A stretch of DNA of 64,000 bases from Phlebopus portentosus (lineage: Eukaryota; Basidiomycota; Agaricomycetes; Boletales; Boletinellaceae), in contig JAYXKI010000008.1 in assembly GCA_037892935.1 (NCBI GenBank), positions 1,488,001 to 1,552,000 of the forward strand, given 5' to 3'. Positions within the stretch are counted from its first letter, which is position 1; the number at the start of each line of letters is the position of its first letter. Of this stretch, positions 4,639-64,000 are shown piece after piece. The notes beneath the pieces were generated by a model. It saw nothing but the letters and a program-made list of their open reading frames with translations, did no database searches and was not told the DNA's origin. The translations under genes and the position numbers were made by a program.

Positions 4639-4758
4639 GTTGGAGAATGAAGAAGAGATAACGGTGGAAGAAAATTTGGACACAACGCGTTATGCTTCAA
4701 AACTCCCATGCATCGAATTTGAGATGGGAGTGACCACGGACGGTCACTATTTCATGAA

Positions 4759-31488: not shown

Positions 31489-31650
31489 AGCAGAGGGTGG
31501 AGGGAGGGCACGGAGAGGGTGGAGGGAGGGCATGGAGAGGGTGGAGGGAGGGCACGGAGAGGGTGGAGGGAGGGCACGGAGAGGGTGGAGGGAGGGCACG
31601 GAGAGGGTGGAGGGAGGGCACGGAGAGAGTGGAGGGAGGGCACAGAGTGA
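31489..31650. repeat. 22-bp G-rich minisatellite
   Basis: Unit AGAGGGTGGAGGGAGGGCACGG repeated about seven times with single-base variants, preceded by degenerate units from about 31440. The strand is almost purely purine, with G3 runs. Proline-rich open frames across it are artefacts of the repeat. Confidence 0.85.
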
Positions 31651-36381: not shown

Positions 36382-36515
36382 TCTCCCAGTTTCTTGAAAT
36401 TGTGACTGTCTGCAGTCACACTCCCAATAGGGTTAGACTCGGCATCTCTAGATTCTTGACATGTAAAATGTGGTTTGCGACGCGTTCCGTTCATCTATCC
36501 TCTCTTCTCTCTGTC

Positions 36516-38349: not shown

Positions 38350-38357
38350 TATATAAG
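38350..38357 (+). promoter_or_regulatory. TATA box of chromovirus LTR
   Basis: TATATAAG, 34 nt before the 11-mer GTCTTTCTATT at 38384 that is complementary to the primer-binding site. The spacing places transcription start at or very near 38384. Confidence 0.75.
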
Positions 38358-38383
38358 TAGATAGTTTGACTCTTTCGTTCCTT

Positions 38384-38394
38384 GTCTTTCTATT
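38384..38394 (+). promoter_or_regulatory. predicted RNA 5' end acting as self-primer
   Basis: GTCTTTCTATT is the exact complement of AATAGAAAGAC at 38610-38620, just after the 5' LTR. In Tf1/sushi-type chromoviruses the first 11 nt of the mRNA prime reverse transcription. Here the match is also 11 nt and stops at both sides. Confidence 0.75.
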
Positions 38395-38609
38395 CTACTT
38401 ACCTTCACTGCGACATAGGTATCTACTCTTGTATTATTAGTTTACTGTATTCTACTTACCTTCACTGCAACATAGCGTTCGACGGTCTGGACTTAAGCCT
38501 CGTCTTAGCTGTCTTGATCTGAGCGACGTGTTTGGGATTATCTCATTCACGCTTGTTTGTTGTTGTGTTGGCCTGCCTCGACTCAGTCCTTGAGCCGTCC
38601 GCCTAACAT

Positions 38610-38620
38610 AATAGAAAGAC
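38610..38620 (+). promoter_or_regulatory. primer-binding site (self-priming type)
   Basis: AATAGAAAGAC, one base after the CA end of the 5' LTR. It does not begin with TGG as tRNA-primed sites do and pairs with the predicted RNA 5' end. Confidence 0.75.
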
Positions 38621-39024
38621 CTACCTCTGGCTCACGCCCGATTCCGTTGTCGTCGAGCGCTCGCCTGTGACGTGTCCCCTGAAGTATATCTTCGAAGGAC
38701 GACATCGAACGAAACCCGGTTCCTACCGTGCAGACAACAAACCCCTATCTTGCCCGTCGAAGTCCGATTGACTCCGACGTGACCCGATAGTACCCGAAGT
38801 ATCAACCAATCACATCACCGTGGCGCTCCGAATCACCCTTCTCTGGAACTCCCATCAAACCTTCTCGTGGGTAACGCATAGAGTCCAGTCGTTGACAAGT
38901 ATCTCCTTCATTATCTACCTCGGAGCCTTTCATTTAGTCATCAATTTCAAAGACGAGCCGGTTATCTAAAGTCGGTCCCGCCCGAACAGCATTCCGATCC
39001 CCGTTCCACCCCCAGCCTATCAAG

Positions 39025-40470: not shown

Positions 40471-40511
40471 ACGTCGGAACGACTGGTCGGTCTCCTAAAG
40501 GTCTCTTTTCG

Positions 40512-43500: not shown

Positions 43501-44333
43501 AATACCTGCGGCTATACGTCAACCATCGGCAGTCGGACTGGGCAGACTGGCTGGCTCTCGCAGAATTCACATACAACAACCATGAACATTCAGCGATGAA
43601 GCTATCTCCCTTCTTCGTCAATACGGGAATGCACCCCTTAGACTTCACAGGGGTTGGAACGGCATCATCGAACCTGTCAGCAGAAGAATTTGCCAAGCAT
43701 GTCAAGGAGGTGCACGAACTCGCTCAAGGTAACCTAACCCAAGCAAACGAAGACATGAAGCGTTTCTACGACCGCCATGCTGGGAAGTCCGTTACCTATG
43801 AAGCAGGGCAGAAAGTCTTCTTAGATGGACGAAATATCAAGACGATCCGACCAACGAAGAAGATGGATGATAAATGGTTCGGTCCCTTCGAGGTAGTGGA
43901 AAAGGTTGGCGCAAGCGCATACAGACTCAAACTACCGAAGACCTGGAAGAAGGTTCATCCAGTTTTCAATGAGATCTTGCTCAAACCAGCCGTCCAACCG
44001 TCCTTTGAATCGCAGAAGAAACCACCTCCACCACCGCCAGTGATCATTGATGAGCAGGAAGAGTACGAGGTTGAAGAAATACTCGACTCGCGTCTGCATC
44101 GAGGCAAGCTCCAATTCTTGGTCAAGTGGGTTGGATATGAGGAAGCGACTTGGCAGCCAGAATCCGACGTCAAGGATAATGCGCAGGAGTCAATTCAAGA
44201 ATTCTACCGCAAACATCCTGGAGCTCCAAGGAAGTTAATGATACCTCGACAAAGCCTGCGAGTGCTGTACAAGTTCACGTCCTCAGAAGGCTTATGTGGT
44301 TGGTCGGGACGCCCAACCTTGAAGGGGGGGTGA
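40512..44333 (+). CDS. Pol of chromovirus: PR-RT-RNaseH-IN-chromodomain
   Basis: 1273 open codons, in a different frame from gag. Order: protease (LIDSGCTGSC near residue 160), RT (residues about 290-560), RNase H (EADAS, YDKEML, WTDH; about 615-750), integrase with H2C2 (HHDSTLAGH ... CDRCQ; about 820-870) and the D,D-35-E-type core (VDLIGE, HDRGVQF, GQTERVN; about 895-1000), GPF module (WFGPFEVV near 1120), and a chromodomain (YEVEEILDSR ... LVKWVGYEEATWQPE; about 1185-1235) that in the family targets chromatin. RT motif A reads KLNVRWGYYNI: the catalytic Asp is Asn416 (codon 41757-41759), while YLDD at 479-482 is intact. Otherwise there are no stops. Translation probably follows gag by recoding; the start shown is only the open frame. 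Confidence 0.93.
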   Translation: MDSLKYNRPVVQYQDANTSDGFILRKILTDVLPDESEDDNDDFEVYEDLFVRRTDAQAGELREEERNQTAIKNEVVAEAPYRENVVAQANVTEAVWDVVGRRAAEVWHEGLVDADQFVRWAGGKELDAFVSIVHPKVAGDDEVDLSNPLLEEENFIDAHALIDSGCTGSCIDEGFVKRYGFPTQRYIRPRPVFNADGTSNEAGLIKEYVVVRMFFGKHEEEIRLAVTSLASSNIFLGHDWLTKHNPEIDWRLGTVKFTRCPDECESPLSSEEIDEEFVRNVRMKEAAKWPPYLEEYADVFSEESFERLPNHRTWDHAIDLKPDFKPSDCKVYPLSPKEQEAMREFIEENLASGRIRQSKSPMASPFFFIKKEDGSLRAIQDYRKLNEGTVKNKYPLPLINELIDKVKDARYITKLNVRWGYYNIRIREGDEWKAAFQTNLGLFEPTVMFFGLCNAPATFQGFMNDIFRELIHEGIVIIYLDDILIFSNNLEEHCRRTKRVFEILRQNGLFLKPQKCEFEVDTVKYLGHIIGNGKVRMDPKKTAAVQDWPVPRNVHELQQFLGLGNWLRRFIKDYSSVVKPLTTLTGKVEWKWGEDEQAAFEELKRRLSSPPVLAIPNNEDPFRVEADASDFATGGVLLQKQDGKWKVIAYRSSTFLEAEQNYEIYDKEMLAIVQALKEWRQYLQGANQPFEVWTDHANLTYFRSPQKLNRRQARWRLDLAEFDFTLVHKLGKTLGKADLLSRRADYDKGERDNENVTFIKKEWLVRGMVQTSREVLIEKVEAQRQEDEGVRPKDVEKRGDMWRKGRRLYVPASIREDVMKEHHDSTLAGHPGATKTIQLIACRYWWPRMSADVRVYVRGCDRCQRTKALRTTRAKVLHPNEVPEAPWQIVTVDLIGELPESNGFNAICVVVDRFSKQIHAIPTTTKLTAEGMARIYRDHVFRLHGLPRKIIHDRGVQFDAKMMKELYKLLHIEGNPSTAYHSQTDGQTERVNQELEQYLRLYVNHRQSDWADWLALAEFTYNNHEHSAMKLSPFFVNTGMHPLDFTGVGTASSNLSAEEFAKHVKEVHELAQGNLTQANEDMKRFYDRHAGKSVTYEAGQKVFLDGRNIKTIRPTKKMDDKWFGPFEVVEKVGASAYRLKLPKTWKKVHPVFNEILLKPAVQPSFESQKKPPPPPPVIIDEQEEYEVEEILDSRLHRGKLQFLVKWVGYEEATWQPESDVKDNAQESIQEFYRKHPGAPRKLMIPRQSLRVLYKFTSSEGLCGWSGRPTLKGG
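44322..44333 (+). promoter_or_regulatory. polypurine tract of chromovirus
   Basis: AAGGGGGGG TGA directly before the 3' LTR. The pol stop codon forms the end of the tract, as is common in this lineage. Confidence 0.8.
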
Positions 44334-44792
44334 TGTAAGGACTTGAACATTTTCCTTTTCTTTTCTGACATCATCATTTATTTTAATATTCTTTTTTCTT
44401 TTCTTTTATTTTTCTTATGCGCTTACTCATCCTTTTGCCGGAACTTTCCACAATGTTCTATCACGCTCACTAATCATCCCATTCCTTGTCATGTGACTTC
44501 CTATTAGGGTAGACCCTTCCCGCACTCAAAGTCTATATAAGTAGATAGTTTGACTCTTTCGTTCCTTGTCTTTCTATTCTACTTACCTTCACTGCGACAT
44601 AGGTATCTACTCTTGTATTATTAGTTTACTGTATTCTACTTACCTTCACTGCAACATAGCGTTCGACGGTCTGGACTTAAGCCTCGTCTTAGCTGTCTTG
44701 ATCTGAGCGACGTGTTTGGGATTATCTCATTCACGCTTGTTTGTTGTTGTGTTGGCCTGCCTCGACTCAGTCCTTGAGCCGTCCGCCTAAGA
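44334..44792 (+). repeat. 3' LTR of chromovirus
   Basis: Copy of 38150-38608; the differences seen are at CpG sites (gacgtc/gacatc, tgcact/tgcgct, catgct/cacgct, gcgctc/gcactc) plus the terminal base pair. Confidence 0.95.
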
Positions 44793-45403
44793 AAACTGTC
44801 TTCTGCTAAAACTCTCTGGCTAAAAACTACTGGGCCCCTACTACGAGTTGCTCACCTATTTATAACTTTGTCCGAACCTGAGCCATCGGAGCGTCAGGGA
44901 GCATAACGAAAGAAAATCGGAAGTGATAATCATAAGGAAATGCATGGGAACAGAAGATGAGGTGAGCATATCTGGAAGGTGGCGAGATAATGGCCATAGG
45001 GCATAATACAAAATGTGAGCGCACACGGAATAATGAGCATAAGGATCATAAGGAACAAAATAAAATATGAATGCATATGGGACTCAAAAGGGGGAAAAGC
45101 CAGAGTGCGTCACGTCAGGTCAAAACTTGGGAGGTGTCAGGGGCTGATTGCAGATCCTTCAATTTACCTCTCATGCCTGGGTTTAGTAAGACGAGCTAGC
45201 TAAGTCAGCCTTTGTAAGTTTTCGACTGGGTGGCTCGAGCATCCGAAAGTTCTTCCTATGCAGCAGTCGAGTGCGAGAGGCTACAGTAGTCCGTTCCACT
45301 TCAAATTGAATTGATCTGCACTGAGTTCCGCTGTTACGATGTAGATTACTGCAGAATACATGTCACGTGCGCGATCTCGGACCTAGCGTGTCGATGCTTC
45401 TTA

Positions 45404-47225
45404 TACCGTGCTCGGTCAAAGCCACAGACACACTCATTGTGCTGCATTCCGATGCACATCTTGGCGGATTGGCCCCCTTTTTGTCGGGTATATCCGAGTT
45501 GACTGAGTCTGCTCTCAGGACACTGCTGGGTTGTCAAGACTTGAGTCAGGTGGAGCGGGAGTCTGTCATCAGTGAGCTGGAAGATCGTGCAGACCGAGTT
45601 TCATACTTGACCGAGTTGGAGAAGATGGCAAGCGCGGTCAGGGTTCTGTCGCCGTTGTAGAGATACCTGTGGATTTGAGCTTGGATCTACTCTATTTGGA
45701 TGATCTGACATGCCGATCATCAGAACGATCGACCTTGACCATATATGGAAGGATCTGCAGTGTGGATCAGTAGGTTGTGCATTTACGGTTCAGCAGCCTT
45801 CTGTTCCCCTCCATCCAGCCTCACTCTCTATTGTCTACCCCTTTCAGATGACAGGCTGTGATGCAGATGACTTGGTTGGATGTCCATATTTACATTTTAT
45901 TTGGTTTCTTTCCTTATTTATCTCCCTGAATCATGTTTCGAGCCTTTGTTGTATGGGTGGCTCACTGCTGTATATAAGCCTCCTGTGCCGCTCTAATGAA
46001 AAGGGGGAGCCCCAGAACGCCCCAGTTTCGACTCATATCATCTCCAGTCAAGTTCCCTAGTCTCCCAGCTTCGTCTTAGTCCATTCCCTCGAGTTCCAGT
46101 CCAGTTCCGACAGTTGCACCAGTTGTGCATATACTCCAGCCCAGCAGATCGTCGATTTTGCTATATCTCCATCAGTTCTTCACCGATCACCTCGGTCCAG
46201 CATTCGTTCGATTCGTCTCATCATTCTTCATCTTCGAGTATTTTCACCCACGAGTTCCGCAGAGTTCCGCTTCATTTCGCCAAGTTCCAATTTTACGATA
46301 GTTTTCCGATATCTTGTTCAGTCTGTATCTCCCTCATTTCTTATCCGTTCATTGTGATTCTTGATCTGTTAGGATCGTGTCGACAAGTACTTTTGATCTC
46401 TTATTTTACATCATCGACTTAGCTAGCTAGTTTTCGACCTCAGAGTAGGTGGCTCAGTTTACACTTCTGACACGGCACCCTTTTGTATTTTGTTTCCCCC
46501 TTCTCTAAGCCATTCCCCTCGACACCAGCATACACTCCTCACATTTCAGACACTCCCTCTTACATTGTACACATCTGGTTGACCCCCAGAGGTTGAACTC
46601 AGACCTTCAGACTGTCAGTTGGCCTTCAGAGCCAGCAGACACGTTTCACCATCTTTGGATCACGAGGGAGATGAGAGGCCCACAAAGCAGCCTCAGATTG
46701 TCGATTATTCAAGCGACGAGGAGTCGGTAGAGGGGAACTGCAACAACAGCAGCAGCAACATTCCTTCTGCTGCCAACGGTTTCTCTTCTGGGGGTCCGGC
46801 TGGTGATGGCGACTTTGGGGCTTTTGACAAAGCGCCCCTCTTTCTTCCGGACGGTGCTGTCAGCGTGAGCAACAGCAGCAACAGCAATCCTCCGGCTGTG
46901 AGTGAGTCTCCGAGTGCAGAATGAATGGAAGAGGATGAGGGAAGCCAAAGCGATGGCGGGGACGGTAGCAGCAGTAGCAGCAGCAGCAGCAATTCGTCTG
47001 CTGCTGGTGCTGAGGATGCCAGTTGCGCCTGTCCTCGAGGTGAGTGACATCGAGGAGTTGGTCGCCGGGACGGATGAGAGTGCCGTCCATTTCTGGATGG
47101 TGGCCTTGGAGAGGCACGCGCGCGTGTTGTTCCGCACTGCGGATCAACTGTGCAACCTAGCGGAGGAGATGCTGGCCGAGACCAGTGTGCTAGAAAGGGT
47201 GGTAAGGGGTGAGGAGGAAGAGTAA
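45404..47225 (+). pseudogene. antisense gene of family A, 3' block (E7)
   Basis: Continues the gene begun at 36516. Frame 45408-45660 encodes CSVKATDTLIVLHSDAHLGG and an acidic helical segment up to VRVLSPL, where a frameshift (near 45655) leads to VEIPVDLSLDLLYLDDLTC. After a solo LTR (45881-46617) a Ser/Asn/Asp-rich region follows (46618-47040; serine and asparagine repeats from AGC/AAC triplets). A final exon after a GT-AG intron near 47040 carries VSDIEELVAGTDESAVHFWM and ends VVRGEEEE at 47225. The acidic end facing the end of pol mirrors family B, but no Zn2Cys6 cluster was found in this copy. Role unknown. Confidence 0.6.
45881..46617 (+). repeat. probable second solo LTR, about 737 bp
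   Basis: Sequence from TGTCCATATT to CAGACTGTCA, with GTTGG before (45875-45879, one base off) and after (46618-46622). A TATA box (TATATAAG, 45971-45978) and C/T-rich R-U5-like sequence fit an LTR. Removing it joins the flanking reading frame (…MTW / LAFRASRHV). The one-base offset at the left end leaves some doubt. Confidence 0.55.
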
Positions 47226-48755: not shown

Positions 48756-50364
48756 TGAAACTCCTGTGGACGTTCTGATGCCGGACAGGGAGTGTATAGT
48801 TCGAGAGGCTGCCCTAGAATACCTTCAAACGGTCAGCAGAGAATTACACCCGAGCTAAGGGCATGAAGGAGTGGAGGGAAATAGGGATATACAATGGAAG
48901 GGCTTGGTGAGAACTGGGGATATGAGGGAAGCGCTCGAGGAGGAATTCCAAGGGTAGGCTTCTCCCGAGATCGATGGTGGTGGTGCAAAGGCTAAATCGA
49001 CTCTCCGGCTCAGCTGCGAGCTCTGGACTAAAGCTGACAAACCCAAGGCACAAGAACTAAACTAACTAAGCTATGCTAGTCAAACCACCAACCTGAACGT
49101 GACTAATCGACTGTGCTAACACACTGGTAAGCAACTGCAGTCGATCTCACTTGTAGTCTTAAGTGTCGGAACGCGGCGTAATGGTTCGAAATGCGATACG
49201 ATGGACGAAGGATAATTGCTGAGTATGTTGAAATGTGATGCAAGGGATGGAGGTGCAAAACGATGATGGAAAGGGGATCGAGAGAATCGAAGGATATGTG
49301 TAGGATGATGGAACCGACCGTTTCCAATTGAAACAATGCAGAACAACACCGGGCTGGACTTGAGGAAGCGGAGAGTGGAATGTCAAGAGGAAAGGGGTGA
49401 TATGGTGTCCTTTCCCGATAACAATGGAGAGGAGAAGGTGTTGCGAGACCAAATGCGAGCGGCACGCAGAGTAACTGGGTTACGAGCGAAACTGGGCGAA
49501 ACGGTTTGGAACACGTAAGGAGGTTTCGGTTTGGGTGAGAGAAGTAAGAGGAGCCTTTGTATGATCACAGCGAACTATACAAACGTACGAACGGCTCTGC
49601 TACGAAGAGAGATCACCAATCGACTGTACAGAACACAAAATGTCGTATATTAGACTATAGAGACGAGAGAGTCCACTACAAACAAGTAGACTAGAGGTCA
49701 AGGGACTTTGAGATGATGTGAGAACTGTAAGCTAAGCTCCCACTCAGCTCCGACTAAGCTGTCCTTCTACTATGAGAGTTATGCTATATTTATACTATAC
49801 GTCCAAGACTGAGCCTCCCAGTGGTCAGAGAACCTACATCATAAAGAAAAGGGAACGCATATCGCTATCTACAAAGGAGAGGAGCGCATATGAATGGTTT
49901 AAGGGACACATAGGTCAAAAGAAACAATACTAAGCATGTCTGGAATGAGAGCATAATGGATTAAAGGGGACGCATATAGAAAGGTCAGAATATGTGCGAA
50001 ACCTTCAGAACCGGGTCTCTTTGAGCGGAACAAAGCGGAACTCGGGGAAACAACTCGGAAGGGCTCTGGCTAGCCTGACAAAGTAAGTCTGCGATGTTTA
50101 ACAAAGGAGAGAGACTGAGGACGAGGTTGCAGGGTCAAATCTCTTTGTCTGGAATGCAGATCCGAGGTCCGGAGACTTGTGATCGACGCGTGCAAACTCG
50201 ATGCCATGATTCTCCCGTCTTGATGGCCAATCAAAGAACGGTGCACGTGCCATCAGGACTATGGCATTCTTGCTAAGTCTACTCATTCGAGCGAAACCAG
50301 TCGGAACACCGCGGAACTGGTCGTAACGACTCTGTATGTTCCCAAGCTTCAGACTTACTCTTCA
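48756..50364 (-). repeat. 3' LTR of E6 (LTR B, 1609 bp)
   Basis: Same termini as the other LTR B copies (TGAAACTCC on + at 48756, TCTTCA at 50364), followed on + by the native TCTCCCAGG junction. Confidence 0.9.
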
Positions 50365-50492
50365 TCTCCCAGGTTCATGAAATAGTGACCGTCTGCGGTC
50401 ACTCCCATCTCAATCCGATGCGTGGGAGTTTCGAAGCATAACGCGTCGCATCCAAATTTTCTTCCGCTGTCATCTCTTCTTCATTCTCCAAC

Positions 50493-52288
50493 ATGTTCAC
50501 TTCTGAAAAAATTGTCGCGCTCTTGGGACCCATCAACTCCAATAATGACTGGAAGGCAGCGGTTGCGAAATTCGAGGCAGATGTCGCCTTGGCCAGGTCA
50601 GCAATGGATGAACTAGACCATGGCGTCACGACGGTAATTCTGCCGGATAAGACAAAACTGGTCAAATGGATCGCGCCTACAGGTTCAATGACGGTACGGT
50701 GGTTGACGAATCCGGTGATGGAATCTTTGATGGATGGGTGGAAGGCAACCACGGTGCATAAACCACGCACTCTAATCAAGAATTTTTGTTAATGAAATTC
50801 GACAGGCACGGAAGGAAGCATTGGAGCAAGTCCGTCCCAAAGGAACAAAAGAAGTCTGGTCAGAGATGGCGTACTCCAACTACTGCGACACGGATGCTCT
50901 CCTACGGACGCTGTACTACAATTGATGGGAATTTTATGCCAGGATGGAGACCAAATGACGAGCTTTCTTCTGCAGACACAGGGTTTCATTCCATCCTGCC
51001 TCGTTCGATTCGACTCATGGGTTCTTCTTAGGCAAATCGTTCCCTCCAATGTTCCCGAAACCGCGCCCTGACATCAAAAAGGCTCTCGAGAACGTGAGAA
51101 TGGAGAGCTCCAAGTTCCAACAAATGGCGAGGTTCACCGGCAACATGGACTACACGTGAGACGAAGCTGTCCGGAGTCACGTAGGTACTTCTTCTTGTCT
51201 ATCATCTCCATCTAATCCTTCCTACAGCAAGCATTCGAATATTGGGAGGATATTGAGCAATGACACCTTTGTGCAGGGCACATCCTTCACATCGACAAGG
51301 TGAAATTGAGAACAGTCCGGCTCCTCTTGGAATACTACAGCTATTCCATTCTTCGTCGTCGGCTCTATCAACTCGTTCGTGCTCAGGAATCCGAAATGCA
51401 ACAACAACAACAGCAACAACAACGATCCCAACATGTGCTGTCTGAACCTTTCTCTCAACCACAACAACAACAGCAGCAACAACCAATGCTGCCTGAACCA
51501 TTTCCTCCGCAACAACAACAACAGCAGCAACATCAAATGCTGCCTCAGAACGTCGATAGTCCAATGGAGGTTGATTCCGCTCCTCTTCAGGTCAAAACTG
51601 GCGAAACGATTGAGGATGGAGAAGTTGCGGAACCGGTCGAAACGCTCGAAACCGGAGCAGAACGTTTGGAAGGGGCTAGCCGTTCTACACCCTTAACCTC
51701 ACTCGAACCCACAATGCTCGAGATTGAGCTTTGCGAGAGTGAAAGACGTGAAGAAGAGGAATGCACTGCTCAATGCGCCGAAATCTCCCGGATGGCTGCC
51801 AAAATCGAGGCCAACATGCGACGACGGCTGGATGCAGGGACTCGCTGCGTTCGTGGTGTTTGGCAAGTGGTGGACTCGGACGAGGAGACTCCTGCAATTC
51901 AGGAAAGTCCTGAGAGTCCTCCTCCTGGTCATCGGGGAGAAGACTCCATTGTCATGAGTCCAGGTGACGGAGGAATGGATATCGGTGATGTGGGAATGGA
52001 GGCGAATGAGCCGTTTGAGGCGGACGCAAGCCTTGAAGAGATTCAGGCTCTTAATACCACGAGCAACAACAACAACAGCAACAACAACAACAATAGTGGT
52101 ACTGCTGCTGTTCCACACGAAACTGTCGAAACGCGAGCGAGACGCATTTCTCCGGTGCGACGAGCGTCTTCTCAACCTGAGGCTGGTCCTTCTAGGATTC
52201 CGGCTAATGGTGGTGGTTCTGGTGGTGACGACAACAATAATGACGACGACGACGACGATGGTGATGAACAATTGAGCGATGGGCGCGT
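50493..52288 (+). pseudogene. antisense Q-rich gene of family B, 5' block (E6)
   Basis: Starts ATG at 50493 (MFTSEKIVALLGP). The N-terminal frame runs to 50792, where one extra T in a T-run shifts frame; it resumes (ARKEALEQV…). A GT-AG intron lies near 51090-51227. The next exon reads QAFEYWEDIEQ, then KLRTVRLLLEYYSYSILRRR, three polyglutamine blocks (51400-51535), an acidic region and an Asn/Asp-rich tract (52060-52260). It is cut at 52288 by E9 and continues at 60592. TGA codons replace CGA of the E1 copy (for example at 51268-51270), typical CpG decay. Possible role: Q-rich activation or protein-contact region of a transcription-factor-like protein. Confidence 0.75.
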
Positions 52289-53777
52289 TGAAACTCCTGT
52301 GCACTGTCTGATAGCTGAGGAGTGTCACAGTTCTTGGGGGCTGTTCGGTAAGATTAAAACAAGTGGGAAAGAGAAGGGTGACTTTGGGGGGAAAACTAGA
52401 GAAGCGCTGATGCGTCGATCTGGGTTCCGGAGCAGTTCCGGAAGGGATGGAGGAGAAATGGGATTGAAGGCTGCTGGATGTATGCGAGGGGGGGGGGATT
52501 GGATTAAAGGAGATAGGCGAAGAAGCAAGGCGGGAGAAGTCGAAGCAAGGGGGATCGGCGGTGGCGGTGCGAAGGTAATCGATGTCCTCACAGGTAATCC
52601 CTCGATGGATTCGAACCCTGGAGGCGGAAGACGATGAGACGAAGCTTAGAGAAGGACTTCCCCTAAGCGCTGACGATACGAAGGTGATCCTTTCGAGGAT
52701 CCGACATGATATAACGGGTTACGACGAGTTACGACGGGTTTCGGTGGGTTACAAAATGAAACGGAGCGATATGACGCGGAACGAAGCGATACGCAAGGGA
52801 CTCAAGTGAGACCTTGCGTAGAGGTGTAGGGAGGATGGATGAGGGCCTCTGACTTCAACACGGGTTGAACTGATCACACTGGGCTCGGGTACGACTGCAG
52901 AGCAGGAGACTCGAGGCGTATGAGACAGAACTATCGTGTATTTTTGGGAGATAGAGTCGAGGAGAGTACAGGAAAAGTCGAATTGGTCTCGACCATAGCT
53001 GAAGTGAGTTTTTAGCCCGGAGAGTCTTAGCAGAAAACAGTTTGGCTCGGGCTAGAACCCACTTCAGCTACGGTCGAGACCAATTCGACTTTTCCTGTAC
53101 TCTCCTCGACTCTATCTCCCAAAAATACACGATAGTTCTGTCTCATACGCCTCGAGTCTCCTGCTCTGCAGTCGTACCCGAGCCCAGTGTGATCAGTTCA
53201 ACCCGTGTTGAAGTCAGAGGCCCTCATCCATCCTCCCTACGCCTCTACGCAAGGTCTCACTTGAGTCTCTTGCGTATCACTTCGTTCCGCGTCGTATCGC
53301 TCCGTTTCATTTCGTAACCCACTGAAACCCGTCGTAACTCATCGTAACCTGTTATATCATGTCGGATCCTCGAAAGGATCACCTTCGTATCGTCAGCGCT
53401 TAGGGGAAGTCCTTCTCTAAGCTTTGTCTCATCGTCTTCCGCCTCCAGGGTTCAAATCCATCGAGGGATTACCTGTGAGGACATCGATTACCTTCGCACC
53501 GCCACCGCCAATCCCCCTTGCTTCGACTTCTCCCGCCTTGCTTCTTCGCCTATCTCCTTTAATCCAATCCCCCCCCCCTCGCATACATCCAGCAGCCTTC
53601 AATCCCATTTCTCCTCCATCCCTTCCGGAACTGCTCCGGAACCCAGATCGACGCATCAGCGCTTCTCTAGTTTTCCCCCCAAAGTCACCCTTCTCTTTCC
53701 CACTTGTTTTAATCTTACCGAACAGCCCCCAAGAACTGTGACACTCCTCAGCTATCAGACAGTGCACAGGAGTTTCA
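52289..53777. repeat. 730-bp R-U5 palindrome
   Basis: Arms 52289-53019 and 53048-53777 are almost identical inverted copies of the U5-side half of LTR A. The 28-bp centre is bounded by TAGCCCG and CGGGCTA. The same short frame is seen mirrored in both arms (52591-52325 and 53475-53741) and is not a gene. Confidence 0.93.
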
Positions 53778-53778
53778 A

Positions 53779-56382
53779 GTGGAGCCCCCGGCGAGGGGGG
53801 AAATTCACTGTTCGTCCAAAACGAGTAACCAAACTCCAGGTAGTACTCGGACTACCCGAAGCCAATCAGCCCGTATCCCCGTAGTTCACCAAGCCTTACC
53901 CCAAGTCACACCTCGGACACCTAGGCAGAGGGCAAGCGCTAGAAGCACCACAGCATCGTCGCTAAGTTCTTTAGTAATTCAACCTTCACCTCTAACCGAG
54001 TCCAGTACCCTACCATCGTTCGAGCCGTCGGCCGAATCGTCTCCTTTTAGTTTCCAAGAAACCGATCTACCTACCGAATTCTCCGAGCAAGAATCCTCGT
54101 CGCCTGAGGATATCACTGTTCGACTCGATTACCCAGACCCCGCTAGGCTCAGACAGCCTCAAACCTCCAATCAAGCGATCCAAGTCAATCTGCTTGCACA
54201 ACAGTCGCAACCAAGCGGATTAACTCTCGCTCACCACCTCCAAGGACTGGGAAGTAACCTGCAGATCCTTAACCAACTTCAGACCAATTATCAGCAGTTG
54301 CAGCGTATATCGAACCAGATGGCTGCAGTTAGACCACCTCTTCGAGGTGACAAGAGAGCACCAGTATTCGACGGTTCCAATCTGAAGGAACTGTTCCGCT
54401 TCTTCGACGACGTGGATGCGATCGCAATAGATTCCAACTGGGATGCGTCGACTACCATCAGACGTGGGTACCTGTACTATGCGAAGACTGACGTTGCAGA
54501 AGTATGGGAGACCCTACCCGAAGTTTCTGCCGCCCCTGTGAGCATCGGAGATTTCAAAACGGCCGTCAAGAAGCTTTATCCAAGTTTGGCAGACGGCAAG
54601 AGATACTCTAGGGGCGAATTGGAGCAGTTCATCGCCGAATGGGCCGAGAAAGGTATTCACACCAGAGATGAATTCGGCACTTATCATCGCGAGTTCCTAC
54701 GCAGAGCCAGGTATCTAGTTGCCAGCAACAAACTTACCGAGAACGACTCAAGATTTGCGTTTCTTCGAGGCATTTCGGGCCAGACTAGGAAGGATATCCT
54801 ACAAAGGCTTGAAATCAAGGACCCGGACCACGAGAGGGGCGACCCCTACGACATCGAGAAAGTAGCAAACGCAGCTATGTACATTCTTTTGGGATCCGCA
54901 GTCGATCAGATCGGATCCGACCCGATGAGCGGCGGAACGAGCGCAACGATGAGCGCATCGTCGGGAGGACATGGAATGACCGTCAAGAAGGAAGAAACGG
55001 ACTTGAGTAAAGTTTGGGAAATGCTGAAGGGTTTTCAGGTAACACTGGAATCGCTCACTAGAGGCCAGGGCCCTCGAATCGCAACAGGTCCGCAACCAGC
55101 CCCATTGGCTCGCACGCCCGGATGTGTGTTCTGCAGCGATCCCAGCCACTTTATAAGGTTGTGCCCGAAGGTACTCGAGTATATCCAGGCCGGAAAGTGT
55201 CTACGTGACTCGAACGGACGAGTAGTCATGCCAAACGGAGCCTTCGTATCAAGTAGGGTTTCGGGCCGGAACCTGATGGAGCGAATTGACAACTTGCTAA
55301 AGCCGAACCTGTCACATCCAGTCAACATCATCAAAGTCGCCGAGCACCCGGAAACCCCAGCCAAGCCGATAGCATCAGCTATGCTCCAGGAAATCAGCGA
55401 GGGTCAGACAGAAGAGACCGATTACGAAGTGGAACGTTTAGAAATCTTGCTCAACGAGGCAAAGAAGAAAGCGGCGACTGGTAAAAGGCAGAAGTTCGAC
55501 GGAGTAGTCATTCCAACTAAGGTGGGACCGCCGGGAAGAGGGGCTTCGAAGGCGCAGCAGTCGCCACCCCCTATTCCTAAGTCCCCAGCGGTTTCACGTT
55601 CGTCACCGCAGCGGGATGATATTAGAAAACCCTCGAACCCCCAACCCCAATACCGCTACGTAGTCCCCGTTGAAGATTCTAACGCTGTCTCTAATGTGCT
55701 CACTCGGATGCTCGACACGAGCATTACACTTAGCCAAAGGGAACTGTTATCGATCGCCCCCGAACTACGAAAGCAACTAAAGGAACTCACTACCGCAAAG
55801 AGATATAACGCTGCCGATGTGAATCTCGTCAAATCGCCGAGTTACGCCACGCAACCGTGCGGAACCGCATCGCAACAACCTGAGGACTCGATTCTGTCCA
55901 TCAGAACGTCGGGAGTGACCGCGGAAGCAACTCTCCCCCTTCGTACGATTACAGCCGTAGTGGAGGACGCGATGGAAGTAGAGTGCGTACTCGATCAAGG
56001 CGCAGCAGTGTGTCTGATTAGGGAAGACGTTTGGGAAAAACTTCAAGTGCCCCTATCACCGGACCAGAGCACGACCATCGAGATGGCGGACACAGCGAAG
56101 TCGGCCACCGTAGGATTAATCCCGAACGCCAAGTTTACGATAGCCGGGATTGATCTTTCCCTGCAAGTGCATGTCGTTCGTCAGGCACCATTCCAGGCGC
56201 TACTCGGACGACCCTTCTTCGCAGTAACCGAATGCGAAACTAAGGATTATACCTCGGGAGACCAGCATATAACGCTATCAGACCCCAACGACAGGAATCG
56301 ACATAGTAAGGTCGCGACTGGAATTCGGAACGTGTTGCGCAACGTTGCGCAACAGGGTTTTCAGCAGACGTCGAGGAACTGA
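53779..56382 (+). CDS. Gag-protease of E9 (family A)
   Basis: The frame is open for 867 codons to TGA at 56382. The first in-frame ATG is at 54319 (MAAVRPPLRGDK); the frame before it is open but begins in the primer site, so the start is uncertain. Parts: Ser/Pro/Thr-rich leader, capsid-like domain (residues about 185-330, RAPVFDGSNLKELFRFFDDV), CCHC knuckle CVFCSDPSHFIRLC (about 453-466), linker, and a retropepsin-like domain (about 715-830) with VLDQGAAVCLI and LLGRPFF. The catalytic triad reads Asp-Gln-Gly instead of Asp-Thr/Ser-Gly, also in E2 and E8, so it is a family feature. Packages RNA and processes the polyprotein. Confidence 0.9.
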   Translation: MEPPARGEIHCSSKTSNQTPGSTRTTRSQSARIPVVHQALPQVTPRTPRQRASARSTTASSLSSLVIQPSPLTESSTLPSFEPSAESSPFSFQETDLPTEFSEQESSSPEDITVRLDYPDPARLRQPQTSNQAIQVNLLAQQSQPSGLTLAHHLQGLGSNLQILNQLQTNYQQLQRISNQMAAVRPPLRGDKRAPVFDGSNLKELFRFFDDVDAIAIDSNWDASTTIRRGYLYYAKTDVAEVWETLPEVSAAPVSIGDFKTAVKKLYPSLADGKRYSRGELEQFIAEWAEKGIHTRDEFGTYHREFLRRARYLVASNKLTENDSRFAFLRGISGQTRKDILQRLEIKDPDHERGDPYDIEKVANAAMYILLGSAVDQIGSDPMSGGTSATMSASSGGHGMTVKKEETDLSKVWEMLKGFQVTLESLTRGQGPRIATGPQPAPLARTPGCVFCSDPSHFIRLCPKVLEYIQAGKCLRDSNGRVVMPNGAFVSSRVSGRNLMERIDNLLKPNLSHPVNIIKVAEHPETPAKPIASAMLQEISEGQTEETDYEVERLEILLNEAKKKAATGKRQKFDGVVIPTKVGPPGRGASKAQQSPPPIPKSPAVSRSSPQRDDIRKPSNPQPQYRYVVPVEDSNAVSNVLTRMLDTSITLSQRELLSIAPELRKQLKELTTAKRYNAADVNLVKSPSYATQPCGTASQQPEDSILSIRTSGVTAEATLPLRTITAVVEDAMEVECVLDQGAAVCLIREDVWEKLQVPLSPDQSTTIEMADTAKSATVGLIPNAKFTIAGIDLSLQVHVVRQAPFQALLGRPFFAVTECETKDYTSGDQHITLSDPNDRNRHSKVATGIRNVLRNVAQQGFQQTSRN
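53780..53791 (+). promoter_or_regulatory. primer-binding site of E9
   Basis: TGGAGCCCCCGG, two bases after the LTR end CA, as in E2. Presumed tRNA primer site. Confidence 0.6.
56355..56361 (+). promoter_or_regulatory. GGGTTTT -1 frameshift site, gag to pol of E9
   Basis: Gag codons CAG GGT TTT CAG form the heptamer G GGT TTT, 21 nt before the gag stop. The -1 frame is open from here into pol. Conserved in E2 and E8. Confidence 0.75.
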
Positions 56383-59300
56383 TACTAAGATGTCAGCGAG
56401 ACGTAGGCGATTATTCGTGTTCAAGCCTCAACAATACGTTTTCTATCTATTCTATTGATGTTTCCGACACTTTCACCTCACTATTTAGTAACCAGCTTCG
56501 GAAGCTGATGAAAGACCCAATGCGTTTCGCTACTGACTATTCAAATCGACCTTATAGATCATGTATTCTAGAGACCCCGGACGACGACGACCCGGCGGTA
56601 CTCATGTACAAACGCGTCGCTCAGAAAGTATGGCCCGTCCCCGGGGTACTACCAGAAGAATTTCGGATCGTCCGAAGGAGGCATCCGAACCCGCTCGAAG
56701 GACTGCCCGAAATACCAAAGAAACCGAAACCGTTTACGCCCATAGGCAGACTAACGAAGGAGCGGTTTGAAGCCCTCAGGATTGACGAGAATCAGTTCTT
56801 ATGGCCCGAAGAAAGGCTGCTAGTTGCTAACCTACTTATGCTGCAGGAAGGAGCACTAGCGTGGACGGAAGTGGAACGGGGTAGTTTCGATGCGCAATAC
56901 TTCGATCCGATTCGCATCCTGACGGTACCGCATGTACCGTAGGTACACAAGAACATACCTATTCCTCCGGGTATTCTCGAGCGTACCATCAACCTGATTC
57001 GCAAGAAAATCAAGAATGGAGCCATTGAACCGTCTAACTCCTCGTACCGATCACGATGGTTTTGCCTAGTCAAGAAAGATGGAGTCTCCCTTCGATTTAT
57101 ACTTGACCTGCAAGACATGAATGGCATTTCCGTCCGAGACTCAGACGTTCCACCGAATATAGAAACCATTGCGGAGCGTTGCGGCGGACGAAGTTGTTAT
57201 TTGAGCCTCGATTTCTATGTGGCTTTTGACCAGCAAGTTCTAGACGAACGCTCTCGAGATCTCACGACATTTCAGACTCCCTTGGGAACGTTCAGAATGA
57301 CGGTTCTCCCGATGGGATACACGAATTCCCTTCAGATTATGCACAATGACGTCGCTTTCATCCTACAAGACAAGATTCCGCACTGTACCGATCCGTATGC
57401 AGACGATTCGCCCGGATTAGGTCCCAAAACACGCTACGAACTCCCGGATGGCTCTTACGAAACCCTGCCAGAGAATCCAGGGATTAGGCAATTTATTTAC
57501 GAGCATATATGCGACGTAAATTGAATTTTGCAGCGAGTCAAGGCAGTGGGAGGGACGTACTCAGGAAAGAAAATGGAGATCGGCGTTGAGTCAATCGTAT
57601 TTCTTGGACACAAACTGACATATTATGGACGAGAGCCAGACAAATCGAAAGTCCAGAAGGTCAGTGACTGGCCGCCATGCCGATCGGTAACCGAAGTCAA
57701 AGGATTCCTCGGAACAGTGGGAGTCCTGCGAATTTTCATTAAGGATTTCGCCAAGATAGCACGCCCCCTCAATCGACTCACTCGGAAGAACAACATTTTC
57801 GATTGGACAGACAAAGAACAGGAATCAATGGACGAGTTGAAGGAAGCGGTCATTAGGTGCCCAGCTCTATGCGCAATAGACTATCAATCGGAACTCGAAG
57901 TCATACTTGCGGTGGATTCATCAATTATCGGAGTAGGATGGTATTTGGGTCAAGAACACGTAGATGGACGAAGAAGGATTAATCGCTTCGGTTCCATAAA
58001 CTGGAATGCCACGCAAGCAACATACTCCCAACCGAAAATCGAACTTTACGGACTATTTCGTACGTTACACGCCATGCGACTATATCTCATCGGAGTGCGC
58101 AAGCTTGTCGTAGAAATGGACGCAGCATACATCAAAGGCATGATTAACAACCCGGACTTACAACCAAACACTACGATCAACCGCTGGATCGCCGGGATAC
58201 TTCTATTCGACTTTGAGATTCACCACATCCCGGCGGCAGACTTCAAATGCACCGACGGACTTTCTCGACGACCCCCGGCACCCGAAGATCCACCTCCGGA
58301 CGAAGGATACGAAGAGTGGATAGACGACACGTATGGATTCTACATCGAAAACCCGGTTACGACGTATTGCGCAGACTTACGTGCGCGCAACCAAGCGAAA
58401 CAACTCCCATCGAGCCCTGGAAATGCGCGAGCAACTCTCGGATCAGTAGGATACCTCGAGAGATCTAACAGGAAATGCTGGGAGGGAAACGGCGACTCTG
58501 ACTTCCCGAAGATGACTGACATCGCGTTGACCTTGTTTCCCAGTTCCGAGAATGCTAACCCGAAAGACGCTCGCTTGGATGACGTCAAGAGCTTCTTGAT
58601 CGGCCAGAAGCGACCAGATCAGTTAGACGATCATGGCTATGCAGCACTGATCAGGTACGCGGCAAATTTTTTTGCTAGAGACAGACATTTGTGGAAGAAA
58701 GTGCGGAACGGACGACACCAGGTCGTAATCGAACCGGAACGCAGATGGAACCTCGTAAAGCAAGCGCATGACGATCTAGGCCACAAGGGAGTATACTCTG
58801 TTCGAATTCGACTCCTGGAACGATTTTGGTGGCCTACCCTCGGTCCAGACGTCAAATACTATGTGCGCACCTGTCATGAGTGCCAAGTTCGCCAGACGAA
58901 GAACATTCTAATTCTCCCGGTCGTACCAACAATACCATCGATTTTCCAGCGCATACACATCGACACCAAGGTAATGCCAAAGTCTGGAGGATACCGGTAC
59001 ATCGTACAAGCCCGATGCGCTTTATCTGGTTACCCCGAATTTCGACTCTTGCGTGAAGAAACCGGCAAAGCGATAGCCCAGTTCATTTTCCAAGACCTCC
59101 TTTGCCGATACGGCGCTTGTCCCGAGCTCGTAACAGATAATGGGAAACCGTTCATCACAGCACTCGATTACCTCAAGGATCGATATCACATCAATCACAT
59201 ACGCATCTCAGCATACAACTCTCGCGCTAATGGAATTGTAGAGAGACGCCACTACGATGTGCAGGAAGCCCTGATAAAGGCTGTAGACGGTAATGACAAA

Positions 59301-59948
59301 CGATGGAGCGACCAAGCTTACTCAGTATTTTGGGCAGAAAGAATCACCATCCAGAAGGCGACCGGAATGTCCCCGTATTACATGGTACATGGAGTAGAGC
59401 CTATTCTACCTTTCGACCTCGCTGAAGCCACGTACTTAGCCCCCCCGGTCGATATGCCTGTTCCGACTGCAGAACTCATCGCAACTCGCGCGAAGCAGCT
59501 CCAGAAGCGCCCTGAGGAACTGGATCGGATCGCCAGACTAGTTTCCGATGCCCGGCATGCATACGCGCGACAATTCGAAGAGATCAACAAGGCCAAAATC
59601 AAAGACTACGATTTCCAGCCAGGACGACTCGTATTGTTGCGAAATATGCGCATCAAAATGGAACTTAATCGCAAGACGAAGCCCCGATACCTAGGACCCT
59701 ATGTGGTAGTACACAAAACAAAGGCCGGTTCATATGTCATTGCGGAACTCGACGGATCAGTCTCGAAGATCCGAGTAGCTGCGTTTCACCTGATTCCTTA
59801 CTTTCCTCATTCGAATCTCTCTGTACCCGTTACTAAACTCGTAAATGCAGCAGATGACGAACTCGAGGACGACGCCAACCCCCCAATCGAACCAGAAGAA
59901 GACGACGTTTCCGACGCCCAGTCGGAATCTCAAAACCTCAACTTATAA
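56361..59948 (+). pseudogene. Pol of E9: RT-RNaseH-integrase-GPY/F, two stops
   Basis: 1196 codons in the -1 frame from the slippery site, with two stops: TAG at 56940-56942 (Trp codon elsewhere) and TGA at 57522-57524 (CGA Arg elsewhere). RT has CYLSLDFYVAFDQ and YADD at 57396-57407, followed by an unusual extension (GPKTRYELPDGSYETLPE) before the thumb. RNase H has AVDSSIIGVGW, KIELYGLFR and EMDAAYIKG. Integrase: H2C2 (HDDLGHKG … CHECQ), catalytic HIDTKVM, TDNGKPF, GIVERRH, and GPY/F (YLGPYVVV). Ends with an acidic tail. No chromodomain. Almost intact; it could have been active at insertion. Confidence 0.9.
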
Positions 59949-60504
59949 ACACCATTCAGTTCTGATGCCCTCCATGCAAACCACTGACATTCTTCTTCTA
60001 ATTAGATCCTTTCGATTATTCGTTTCATTTCATTCCTCTCCCGATTTTCCTCTCGATTTTTCCTTCCTTCGAATTATTCGCGCTCAACCGCATTTAGACC
60101 CTCGGAAAGTGTTCGCGCAAACCGAGATACGTGTTCAACCGCGTGTTCACCTTCATATGCTCAGTTGCGAATTGCAACCCAGTATAGCGCTGCGCAAAAC
60201 AGCGCAACTAGCTTATTTTTCTCTCAGTCCTTTCGACTCAATAATCACCGCTTATTTTCTCTAATCTCTCTTTTTCTCATATCTCAATTCTCATTCTTCC
60301 ATTATTCTTCGACCTCGCCTCATTTACCTTCACCCCAAACGTCAAAACCGCAAACAAAAATTCATAACATTCAAAAACGCACAAAAACTATATATATACA
60401 AAAGTTCAAATTATTTTTTTCTTTTTCTTCTTTTTCTTTGTTTTTTTATTCGTCCCATGAGGGGACACTAGACGAAAAAGCGTTGTTTTGACGCACTCTA
60501 CCCC
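59949..60504. other. 3' non-coding region of E9
   Basis: Homologous to 47226-47800. T/C-rich tracts (60415-60450) mark the pol-side 3' end. At about 60500-60509 it fuses to the LTR end through the shared run ACCCC/CCCTTCTC, and everything that should lie between (antisense gene, polypurine tract, U3, R) is missing. Confidence 0.7.
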
Positions 60505-60591
60505 TTCTCTTTCCCACTCGTTTTAATCTTACCGAACAGCCCCCAAGAACTGTGACACTCCTCAGCTATCAGACAGTGCACAGGAGTTTCA
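60505..60591 (+). repeat. U5-end fragment of LTR A (right end of E9)
   Basis: TTCTCTTTCCCACTCG...AGGAGTTTCA, matching the last 87 bp of the LTR that ends at 53777. Confidence 0.9.
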
Positions 60592-61079
60592 GCGTTCGTC
60601 ATCGGGTTCTGTGCGACCAGTGCCAGAAGCGTGGCCATGATTGCGTGGGTCTTCCACAGAGGACTTGCACTCCATGCTTGAAGCAGGCGAAGGGCTGTAG
60701 TCTAGCCACGAAGGGCAGGGCTGTAGCTGCAAAGCATAAGGCAGCTCGGGAGGTGCGCGATCGGGAAGCAAAATGCCAGAAAGTCACGGCTCTGGCAGCC
60801 AGATCTGTGGGTGGTCGCGTCAAGCATGAGGCTCTGCAGCAGGAGGTCGGGGAATCTGAGCTGCAGTTTGTGCTGGTGCGGATGGATCACCGGGACAAGG
60901 TCCTGTCCCAGATGCTGAATGAATTCAGTGTCCTCATAGTGCAGGTGCATGCGGATCGTCGTCTGCTGCTCGAGTTGGCTGGGGTGAAGACGGGGGAAGG
61001 TGAAGATGAGGAAGAGGAAGATAGAGGGGAAGTGGAGAGGGTTCGTCAGTCGAAGGGGAAAGGTAGGGCTCGGGAATAG
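60592..61079 (+). pseudogene. Zn2Cys6 C-terminal part of family B antisense gene (E6)
   Basis: Continuation of the gene interrupted at 52288; the join at GCGT is in frame by comparison with E1. From 60613 it encodes CDQCQKRGHDCVGLPQRTC plus TPCLKQAKGC, exactly CX2CX6CX7CX2CX6C, the spacing of fungal Zn(II)2Cys6 binuclear clusters. Then come a basic Lys/Ala/Arg-rich helix, a helical segment (ESELQFVLVRMDHRDKVLSQM) and a Glu/Asp-rich tail ending KGKGRARE at 61079. All six cysteines are intact here. A cluster at the C-terminal side of a Q-rich protein is unusual, since most fungal Zn2Cys6 factors carry it near the N-terminus. DNA binding is inferred. Confidence 0.82.
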
Positions 61080-61501
61080 AGTATAATCATCGCGTATGCT
61101 CTATGTCCTGGTCGGACTTTTGTAAAATAGAAAAAGAAAAGGACAAAAGAAAAAGAAAAATAACTTGTACTGTACATAGTTGTTTTTATAGTTAATTTAT
61201 ACGATTTTGTTTCGGTTTTTGTGAATTTTTGTGCGATCAAGCGAGACTGAGTGAAGGCTAGAAGAATAGATCAAAGAATTCAAGGAATAGGATGAAAGGA
61301 AACTGATACGAAGTGAAATGAGGCATTTCGCCATCGTTCCGCTGTTTTGAATGGCAAAACCGTGCGGAACTGCATATTAAGTAAAAGTACACACTAGCAG
61401 AGATGAAACTATAGAAGGAGAATTGGAAGATTAGAATTGATCAGAGGAGAGAGAGAGAATCGGAAATAAGTAAGGAGCATATATGAAGGGAAATGAATGA
61501 T
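61080..61501. other. convergent 3' region between antisense gene and pol (E6)
   Basis: Non-coding, homologous to 1891-2347 in E1, with an A-rich run (61125-61165) after the antisense gene. Confidence 0.6.
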
Positions 61502-64000
61502 TTAATCAGAATTTTGGGACTCATCATCAGGGAATTTCTCTGGCGAATCTTCTATTTCAGGTATGTCATCATCTTTGTCCGATCCAATGAGCTTGGTCAC
61601 CGGAACAGTCAAATGCAAACGCGGGAAGTACGGAACCAGGCGAAACACTGCTATTCGGAGTTTTGAAACTGCTCCATTGAGTTTGGCGACAATATACGAA
61701 CCGCCTTGGGTGCGTCGAACTGCCACGTAGGGGCCTAAATAGTGAGGTTTCATTTTACAATTGAGTTCCATCTTGATACGCATGTTTCACAAGAGTACGA
61801 GACTTCCCGGCTGAAAGTCGTAGTCCTTGATTCTATGCTTCTCCACCTCGGCGAACTGCTTTGCGTATGTATGCCTTGCATTTATGACGAGTTTTGCAAT
61901 GCAATCCAACTCTTCTGGACGTTTCTGGAGTTGTTTCGCACGTATTACAATAAGTTCCGATGTCGTAACTGGCGAATTGAGCGGCAGTGCTAGGTATGTT
62001 GCTTCTGCGAGGTCGAAAGGCAAAACTGCTTCGACTCCATGGGCCATGTAATACGGGGACATTTCTGTTGCTCTGTTGATCGTGATTCTTTCTGCCCAAA
62101 ATACCGAGTCAGCGTGATCACTCCAATGCTTGTCATTACCGTCTGCAGCTTTAATCAAGGCTTCCTGTATGTCGAAATGTCTGCGTTCGACTAATCCATT
62201 TGCACGTGAGTTGTATGACGAAATCCAAATGTGGTTAATGTGATACCGTGTCTTCAAGTAATCTAGCATGGCAACGAATGGTGTGCCGTTATCGGTAACG
62301 AGTTTGGGGCACACTCCATATTGACACAAAAGGTTCTGGAAGATAAACTGGCCTACGGTCTTACCAGTTTCTTCACGAAGAAGTCTAAATTTAGGATACG
62401 TGGTTAACGAACAACGTGCATGCACGATATATCGGAATCCACTCGATTTTGGCATGACCTTCGAGTCAATATGGATGCGTTGGAACAGAGGGGCTACCTC
62501 CGGTACATTCGGTGGGATAAGAATATTCTTCGTCTGGCGTATCTGGCACTCATGACAGGTGCGCACAAAATACTTCACGTCCTGTCCTAAGGACGGCCAC
62601 CAAAATCTCTCCAGCAGTCGCATTTGAGTGCAGAAAATTCCTTTGTGTCCTAGATCGTCATGAGCTTGCTTAACTAGGTCCCATCTGCGTTTCGCTTCTA
62701 TTACGACTTGGTGCCAGCCGTTCCATGCTTTTCTCCACAGACGGCCTCCCTTCACGAAGAAGTCAGCTGCGTACCTGATTAGCTTCGCATAGCCACTATT
62801 GCTAAGATTGTCTGGGTGTGTGAGATGCGTGATTAGCTTCGTGATGTCATCTAAGCGGCTATCCTTCCTTCTTGCAGATTCCATAGAAGAAAATAGGTCC
62901 TCGGTCGCTGTTTCACTAGGTGTTCCACCCTGTTGTGCTACTTGGTATGTCGAAACCAGCTCTTCTATCACAAAACTGTACATTTCGTCTACCCAGTCTT
63001 CGTACATTTCATCCGGAGGGGGGTCTTCTTCAGCTGCTCTTTGTCTGGATAATCCATCAGTATATCAGAAATCGGCTGCTGGGATGTGTCTGAGCTTGAA
63101 ACTGAAGAGAAGGATACCTGCGATCCATCTGTTAATGGTTGCATTGGGCTGCAGGTCGGGATTGTTAATCATCCCCTTGATGTATGCTGCATCCATTTCG
63201 ACTACTAGATTCCGGACTCCGATGAGATACAGTTGCATCGCGTGCAATGCTCGAAATAAGCTGTATAACTCGATTTTTGGCTGTGAATACGATGCCTGGG
63301 TCTGATTCCAGTTAATAGAACTGAATTGATTGATCCTTCACCTTCCATCTGAGTGCTCTTGTCCTAAATACCAACCAACTCCAATAATAGACGAGTCTAC
63401 TGCCAAGATTACTTCATTATCTGACATGTAGTCGATTGTGCACAGCGCGGGACAAAGAATAACAGCTTGCTTTAGTTCATCCATTGCGTTCTGTTCTTTG
63501 TCTGTCCACGCAAAAATCTGGTTCTTCCTTGTCATGCGGTACAATGGGCGAGTTTCGAATAATCCTTGACGAAAATCTGAAGGACTCCTACTGTTCCCAG
63601 AAATCCTCTGACTTCCATCAGCATTCTACATGGCGGCCAATCTCGTATCTTCTGTACTTTCGAATCATCTGGCTTGCGTCCCTGGTACGTCAACTTGTGT
63701 CCCACGAATACGGCTGACTCCACACACGGAACCAACTTCTTTCCCGAAAATGTTCCTCCTACAGCCTTCATTCGCTGCAAAATTCTGTTCACATCACATA
63801 TATGCTCATACACAAAATGACGAATATCGGAGTTTCCCGGTATGGTCTCGTACGAACTGTCTGGTAGCTCGTATCGTGATTTCGGACCTAAACCGGGTGC
63901 ATTGTCTGCGAAAGGGTTCGTAACGTGCGGAATCTCGTCCTGAAGGATAAAGGCCACGTCGTTATGTATAATCTGCAAGGAATTGGTGTATCCCATTGGT
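61502..64000 (-). pseudogene. pol of E6 (family B), partial at window edge
   Basis: Minus-strand frames 63996-63532 (RT), 63544-63065 (RNase H), 63007-61787 (H2C2 and integrase core: HDDLGHKG, CHECQIRQ, HIDSKVM, TDNGTPF, GLVERRH) and 61783-61502 (GPY/F region, acidic tail). The RT box at 63912-63901 reads F-A-D-N. A few stops and frameshifts occur, for example between 61783 and 61790 and near 63060. The best preserved family B pol; the 5' part lies beyond 64000. Confidence 0.9.

Follow-up and report, generated by a model that had tools for sequence, protein, structure and literature searches.

Does a gene that runs against pol inside a fungal retrotransposon belong to the element, and, if it does, what might its protein do? 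The question is raised by a stretch of 64,000 nucleotides of the Phlebopus portentosus genome (the window, G000:C8:1488001-1552000), where comparison of the window with itself and Pfam matches reveal nested Ty3 elements with protease, reverse transcriptase (RT), RNase H and integrase. In three of them, E1, E6 and E7, a sequence-only reading had placed a gene on the strand opposite to pol, in the space between pol and the 3' long terminal repeat (LTR), and tblastn bears this out: the family B protein aligns with E1 at 4638-2351 (-) and with E6 at 50493-52307 and 60594-61076 (+), while the family A protein matches E7 at 36516-37463 and 45406-47222 (+). E1 and E6 are the window's members of family B; E7 and an insertion at 52284-60591 are those of family A, whose LTR pairs and order of protease, RT, RNase H and integrase (53713-59948) are of the Ty3/Gypsy kind. 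All three window copies of the gene are broken and intact copies are present elsewhere in the genome, which comprises 38.4 Mb in 23 contigs. Our analysis indicates that the gene is linked to pol in three families and is under purifying selection in each.

Distribution of the gene and its linkage to pol

Families A and B, both Ty3-type, carry an antisense gene of three exons in the slot between pol and the 3' LTR. The proposal that the two families share this slot turned out to be narrower than the facts, as a more distant third family, C, has its own version there, on the opposite strand and 3' of pol (the C 3' LTR was not located). The C gene can be drawn as five exons, with exons 2-4 multiples of three, a G-run of variable length in exon 1 and an exon 5 start that varies by one G.

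For family A we took the best 20 loci found with a 5' LTR/leader query, excluding the window and leaving out seven weaker long matches; 18 of the 20 have the whole gene, L021 has part of it and L028 none. The 20 B loci were retrieved by the gene itself and are a biased sample, and the share of carriers was therefore measured separately, by searching a 160-residue pol end against the whole genome (133 rows) and comparing it with 105 gene matches, the A, B and C classes of pol being defined by our own identity cuts. Within 3 kb and on the opposite strand, 28 of 31 A-type pol ends (median 585 bp) and 58 of 61 B-type ends (median 580 bp) have the end domain of the gene after them; nine short pol fragments were excluded from these counts, and the gene is present by eight of them. 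Conversely, a pol that converges on the gene lies within 3 kb of 91 of the 105 gene matches. The A query detected the C version at 0 of 32 C-type pol ends; C's own cluster gave 33 matches genome-wide, and with it the gene was found after 32/32 C-type ends at a median distance of 471 bp; two are 2.2 and 3.9 kb away, which puts 31 within 3 kb. Altogether 118 of the 124 pol ends have the gene after them in antisense when 3 kb is allowed for A and B and 5 kb for C, or 117 when 3 kb is applied to C as well. This linkage is far above chance, and it rules out a host gene lying inside the elements by accident.

C-type pol is 46-53% identical to that of A, the pol ends of the three families are 46-70% alike, and the antisense gene marks a clade of Ty3 elements. 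The two LTRs of seven A copies differ at 4, 41, 6, 37, 8, 5 and 4 of about 1346 positions, figures that are upper bounds, with five bases past the LTR included, so that at least five of the copies that bear the gene are young. Family C has in addition a sense-strand frame of 380 codons past the antisense gene (L054, 3570-4709, +), without a Pfam match; it has 67 matches genome-wide including fragments, many of them close to C copies.

Antisense accessory genes are already known in plants and fungi. The sequence-only reading had named plant elements as carriers, which holds, and fungi have a case too, the brtn gene of Boty. Zhao et al., as cited by others, reportedly treated brtn of Boty-like elements in Botrytis and Sclerotinia in 2011. 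In the passages that mention it, brtn is likewise an extra antisense gene between pol and the 3' LTR of a fungal element (PMC7264820, PMC8365987, PMC4227169); Boty differs in its chromodomain gag-pol (PMC4227169), and no zinc cluster is mentioned in the passages on brtn, a comparison by description. The review passages on antisense additional open reading frames (aORFs) of plants name Boty as a fungal case and call the function unknown (PMC7264820). Grande gene23, which is described as having its own promoter, RIRE2 and Retand TRP28 share with our gene the slot, the strand, presence in most copies and a suggested nuclear or DNA-binding role (PMC7264820, PMC11963269), and differ in their plant hosts and their domains (TRP28, SMC); in the parts on Retand, TRP28 antisense proteins occur in 97% of clusters, with DNA binding suggested (PMC11963269). 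The words "zinc", "intron" and "transcription factor" occur 0 times in the main text of the Retand paper (PMC11963269). As in the class called aORF-3R, the gene of A and B runs antisense in the interval from pol to the 3' LTR; across the three families it is present in most copies (118/124) and is conserved like the element proteins (dN/dS, the ratio of nonsynonymous to synonymous substitution rates, 0.29-0.43).

Coding constraint and the encoded protein

In all three families the antisense gene is under purifying selection. Its dN/dS is 0.35 in A (bootstrap 0.26-0.49, 18 copies), 0.29 in B (0.22-0.39, 16 of 20 copies, L029, L030, L043 and L048 being removed by the length filter) and 0.43 in C (0.26-0.66, 8 of 10 copies, with exon 5 reframed and L057 and L058 left out), the intervals being too narrow because copy pairs are not independent. 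Wrong frames on the same strand gave 0.93-0.98 in A and B (0.77-1.09 for exon 3 alone) and 0.90 and 1.07 in C, and the 3' part of A pol gave 0.22 (0.13-0.38, 18 of the 19 loci given). Between subfamilies the ratio is 0.43 for B against L052 (wrong frames 0.66, 0.69) and 0.45 for A against L050 over part of exon 3 (wrong frames 0.68, 0.73). The gene also appears spliced, as had been proposed: GT-AG dinucleotides are kept in 18/18 A, 16/16 B and 8/10 C copies. Length differences in B exon 3 range from 0 to 87 bases and are divisible by three in 16/16 copies; 12 of the 18 A copies and 11 of the 16 B copies are free of stops and frameshifts. Two measurements count against constraint throughout: with the decayed copies L057 and L058 included, the C ratio rises to 0.86 (0.73-1.00), and one donor of the diverged B copy L052 reads AT instead of GT. 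The first 60 codons of C exon 1, over all ten copies, give 0.86 (0.64-1.18). The sequence-only reading would have fallen had most members lacked the gene, had it been a host gene there by chance or had dN/dS been about 1; each was checked and none was found.

CpG transitions make up 141 of 201 changes among A copies and 156 of 252 among B copies, which suggests cytosine methylation and deamination or a process like repeat-induced point mutation.

The A, B and C proteins all end in six cysteines, spaced 2-6-7-2-7 in A, 2-6-7-2-6 in B and 2-6-8-2-6 in C (CX2CX6CX8CX2CX6C in the antisense frame of L054). Proteins of the Zn2Cys6 type follow the rule CX2CX6CX5-12CX2CX6-8C, which all three spacings satisfy. 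The cluster CX2CX6CX7CX2CX6C reported for B is thus there, but it is no peculiarity of B: A has one in all 18 aligned copies, with one cysteine altered in one copy, and so does C. In a predicted model the C-terminal domain of B looks like a Zn2Cys6 cluster and resembles PPR1, HAP1, LEU3 and GAL4, with which it shares the six-cysteine spacing and a helix following the cluster, the modelled fold appearing similar; the element proteins differ from these factors in that the cluster is C-terminal, falls below the Pfam cut-off and is encoded by a retrotransposon. A search of the PDB by sequence gave no relevant match, and a full-length model of the protein P0002, with a predicted local distance difference test score of 40, was left unused. 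A literature search over titles and abstract openings, with subscription papers mostly outside it, recognised no Zn2Cys6 protein encoded by an LTR element, in keeping with the earlier statement that none was known in fungi.

B proteins match hypothetical proteins of Sanghuangporus sanghuang (88-95% identity), S. weigelae (78%) and S. baumii (63%), and the A protein matches one of S. sanghuang (93%); judged by these identities, the DNA would probably come from S. sanghuang. Among about 8000 best word-sharing candidates, many of them probably polyglutamine (polyQ), no match fell outside Sanghuangporus, which is weak evidence of absence; a search with the P0002 zinc region over 1883 candidates gave four proteins, all of Sanghuangporus and one of them the query itself. 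Of the public gene models, P0001 (B) and P0006 (A) have the same two introns as drawn here, each differing further in exon 1, while P0003 and P0005 start inside the antisense gene. The N-terminal halves of A and B agree only in intron phase and in a short ARKxxLExxRP start of exon 2, and their homology is unsupported, 102 of 300 shuffles attaining the score. A single-copy locus, L049 (G000:C3:2957500-2961000, about 2013-2309, +), carries a similar zinc cluster with no convincing pol match in 3.5 kb; within the genome it comes closest to the element proteins of B and A (best E about 1e-5), and it is possibly a host donor or a domesticated copy.

Broken copies in the window

The gene of E6 is interrupted by an 8.3-kb family A insertion with GCGT on both flanks. 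The left end of this insertion is a 1.5-kb near-palindrome of inverted LTR pieces, so that one and the same LTR end is found at either outer border; still bordered by a 4-bp duplication, it may be an autointegration product that then integrated. The last part of the E6 gene (60592..61079) has 93-100% DNA identity over 486-488 of its 488 bases to the best 40 of 67 genome-wide candidates. In E7 the interruption is a solo LTR that contains a 6.6-kb chromovirus-type element. The latter has no space for an antisense gene, because its 3' LTR starts directly after the pol frame. Residues 469-528, which include the zinc cluster, are deleted from the E7 gene, and an insertion of about 1 kb in the remainder of exon 3 (about 45655-46645), with similar sequence outside elements in L019 and L021, is probably a solo LTR. 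Apart from the insertions, E6 has the stops listed in the table and E7 has one in the first part of exon 3 (3a); in E1 the B protein aligns in frame-shifted pieces. Elsewhere in the window lie a second near-palindrome of about 1.1 kb (22105-23199, 95% inverted self-match) and a tandem array with a period of 11/22 bases (31413-31647).

Table. Antisense genes and associated features in the window (positions of the window).
Feature	Position	Strand	Remarks
E6 (family B) antisense gene, exon 1	50493..50753	+	tblastn of B protein; no stop; donor GTGCAT
E6 antisense gene, exon 2	50806..51180	+	3 stops; acceptor CGACAG, donor GTAGGT
E6 antisense gene, exon 3, first part	51228..52286	+	Q-rich; 1 stop; B protein match
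E6 antisense gene, exon 3, remainder	60592..61079	+	CX2CX6CX7CX2CX6C cluster, helical region, acidic tail, stop
E6 3' LTR	48756..50364	-	
Inverted repeat, 18 bp	50385..50402	+	adjoins E6 polypurine tract
Rearranged family A element within E6 gene	52284..60591	+	GCGT flanks; inverted LTR pieces at left end; own antisense gene deleted
E6 pol, 3' part	61505..63783	-	
E1 (family B) antisense gene	2348..4638	-	broken
E1 inverted repeat	4730..4747	-	one mismatch
E7 (family A) antisense gene, exon 1	36516..36761	+	polyQ start
E7 antisense gene, exon 2	36826..37176	+	
E7 antisense gene, exon 3, start	37231..37405	+	
E7 antisense gene, exon 3, remainder	45404..47225	+	in pieces; zinc-cluster stretch deleted
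Solo LTR within E7 gene	37406..45403	.	contains element 38150-44790
E7 inverted repeat	36402..36419	+	adjoins E7 polypurine tract
E7 3' LTR	35034..36381	-	ends accurate to a few bases
Chromovirus-type element	38150..44790	+	no antisense gene; pol frame ends 44333, 3' LTR from 44334

A possible regulator of its own element

Place, strand, exon layout, constraint and presence in three families can all be read from the DNA, and on that footing the gene is no passenger but a regular accessory gene in a clade of Ty3 elements. What could its protein do? Zn2Cys6 is the commonest fungal DNA-binding type, and we lean, by a little, towards a nuclear DNA-binding transcriptional regulator of the element that encodes it. 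Transcription of the gene would start next to the 3' LTR, at an antisense promoter that is its own or lies in the LTR, and the transcript would be spliced; the protein would enter the nucleus, dimerise via the helices following the cluster and bind element DNA, setting the level of sense transcription much as HBZ does for human T-cell leukaemia virus type 1 (HTLV-1). HBZ is a spliced bZIP protein. It belongs to a retrovirus, no homology to the fungal gene is claimed, and a bZIP domain is not among the Pfam hits of the A or B proteins. The likeness lies in what the passage on HBZ describes, a nuclear protein encoded antisense that has a part in the life cycle of the virus (PMC11963269).

The best candidate for a binding site in A and B would be an inverted repeat beside the polypurine tract. 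The 40-45 bp adjoining this tract are alike between A and B, and their LTRs have only short common stretches, the longest 55 bp at 76%. The 18-bp repeat, GTGACYG-N4-CRGTCAC, is present in 37 of the 40 A and B loci (L009-L048), with a T-A to C-G change between the families, and precedes the antisense ATG by 97 bp in A (L016) and 90 bp in B (L035); allowing up to two mismatches, the window has three sites against 0.01 expected.

Several observations weigh against such a regulator. Neither the A nor the B protein matches Pfam Zn_clus (PF00172), and C scores 11.4 bits against a gathering score of 21; the fold match of the B model is weak by E-value and Z; the stretches that resemble nuclear localization signals are our own reading. 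For the cluster segment alone, dN/dS is 0.68 in A (0.36-1.26), not distinct from neutral, as compared with 0.28 in B (0.14-0.65). A look for the inverted repeat in the two C loci found none. The RNA folds of the repeat are ordinary (z -0.9 to -2.0), which leaves a reading as RNA hairpin weak and makes a candidate protein site the more likely interpretation.

The main rival is that the protein serves integration, joining the integrase complex or the target DNA and steering insertion, for example to CpG sites, which we think unlikely but worth weighing. A readable end was available at 18 A and 19 B loci of the 40 given, and the four bases past the 3' LTR fit NCGN at 16 of the former and all of the latter, CpG being 7.5% of dinucleotides in the fetched loci, and six of seven A LTR pairs have 4-bp duplications with a central CG, the seventh having an altered 3' end. 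Zn2Cys6 proteins, moreover, often read CGG/CCG. However, no motif longer than NCGN is evident by eye, integrase alone could set the preference, and the gene-less chromovirus-type element offers a comparison at one site only, a 5-bp AAACT read by eye. Less probable again is that the antisense transcript matters and the protein does not, the transcript forming a duplex with gag-pol RNA and in this way feeding silencing or damping it. The gene runs towards pol and stops within about 0.6 kb of it, and RNA effects are discussed for plant elements in the passages on them (PMC7264820), but the coding constraint, the kept splice sites, the in-frame length changes and the kept cysteines point to selection on the protein; an RNA effect can act in addition, and as the sole role it is disfavoured. 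A captured host zinc-cluster gene carried without use, for which the single-copy cluster on C3 might speak, is very improbable given the same slot in three families with diverged pol ends, the purifying selection and the in-frame indels. Finally, we give practically no credence to a frame open by chance with the true coding on the gag-pol strand: the mirror frame in exon 3 does have a low dN/dS in B (0.33 against 0.26 for the gene) and a middling one in A (0.53 against 0.40), which tells against our reading, but this is expected of a frame whose third positions coincide with those of the gene frame, and stops interrupt the mirror frame 16 times in B and 7 times in A, whereas the gene frame stays open over 512 and 401 codons, the A-B protein similarity moreover falling on the gene strand. 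An antisense frame without any coding role is ruled out by dN/dS, splice conservation and these mirror-frame stops.

Returning to the protein as a regulator, we tentatively suggest a wider picture, which may well prove too bold, in which the clade runs a two-strand control circuit: a spliced antisense factor resembling the Zn2Cys6 type, diverging far faster than pol between families, would recognise sites particular to each family, the inverted repeat at the edge of the 3' LTR being an example, and switch between the sense (genome) and antisense (regulator) programmes. HBZ of HTLV would then have a counterpart in fungi that arose independently. The antisense accessory genes that LTR elements carry have long been puzzling, because most encode proteins of unknown kind. 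Here a protein that resembles the Zn2Cys6 type is constrained in three families and has a candidate site in two of them, and the role of antisense element genes would thereby become directly testable by standard DNA-binding assays.

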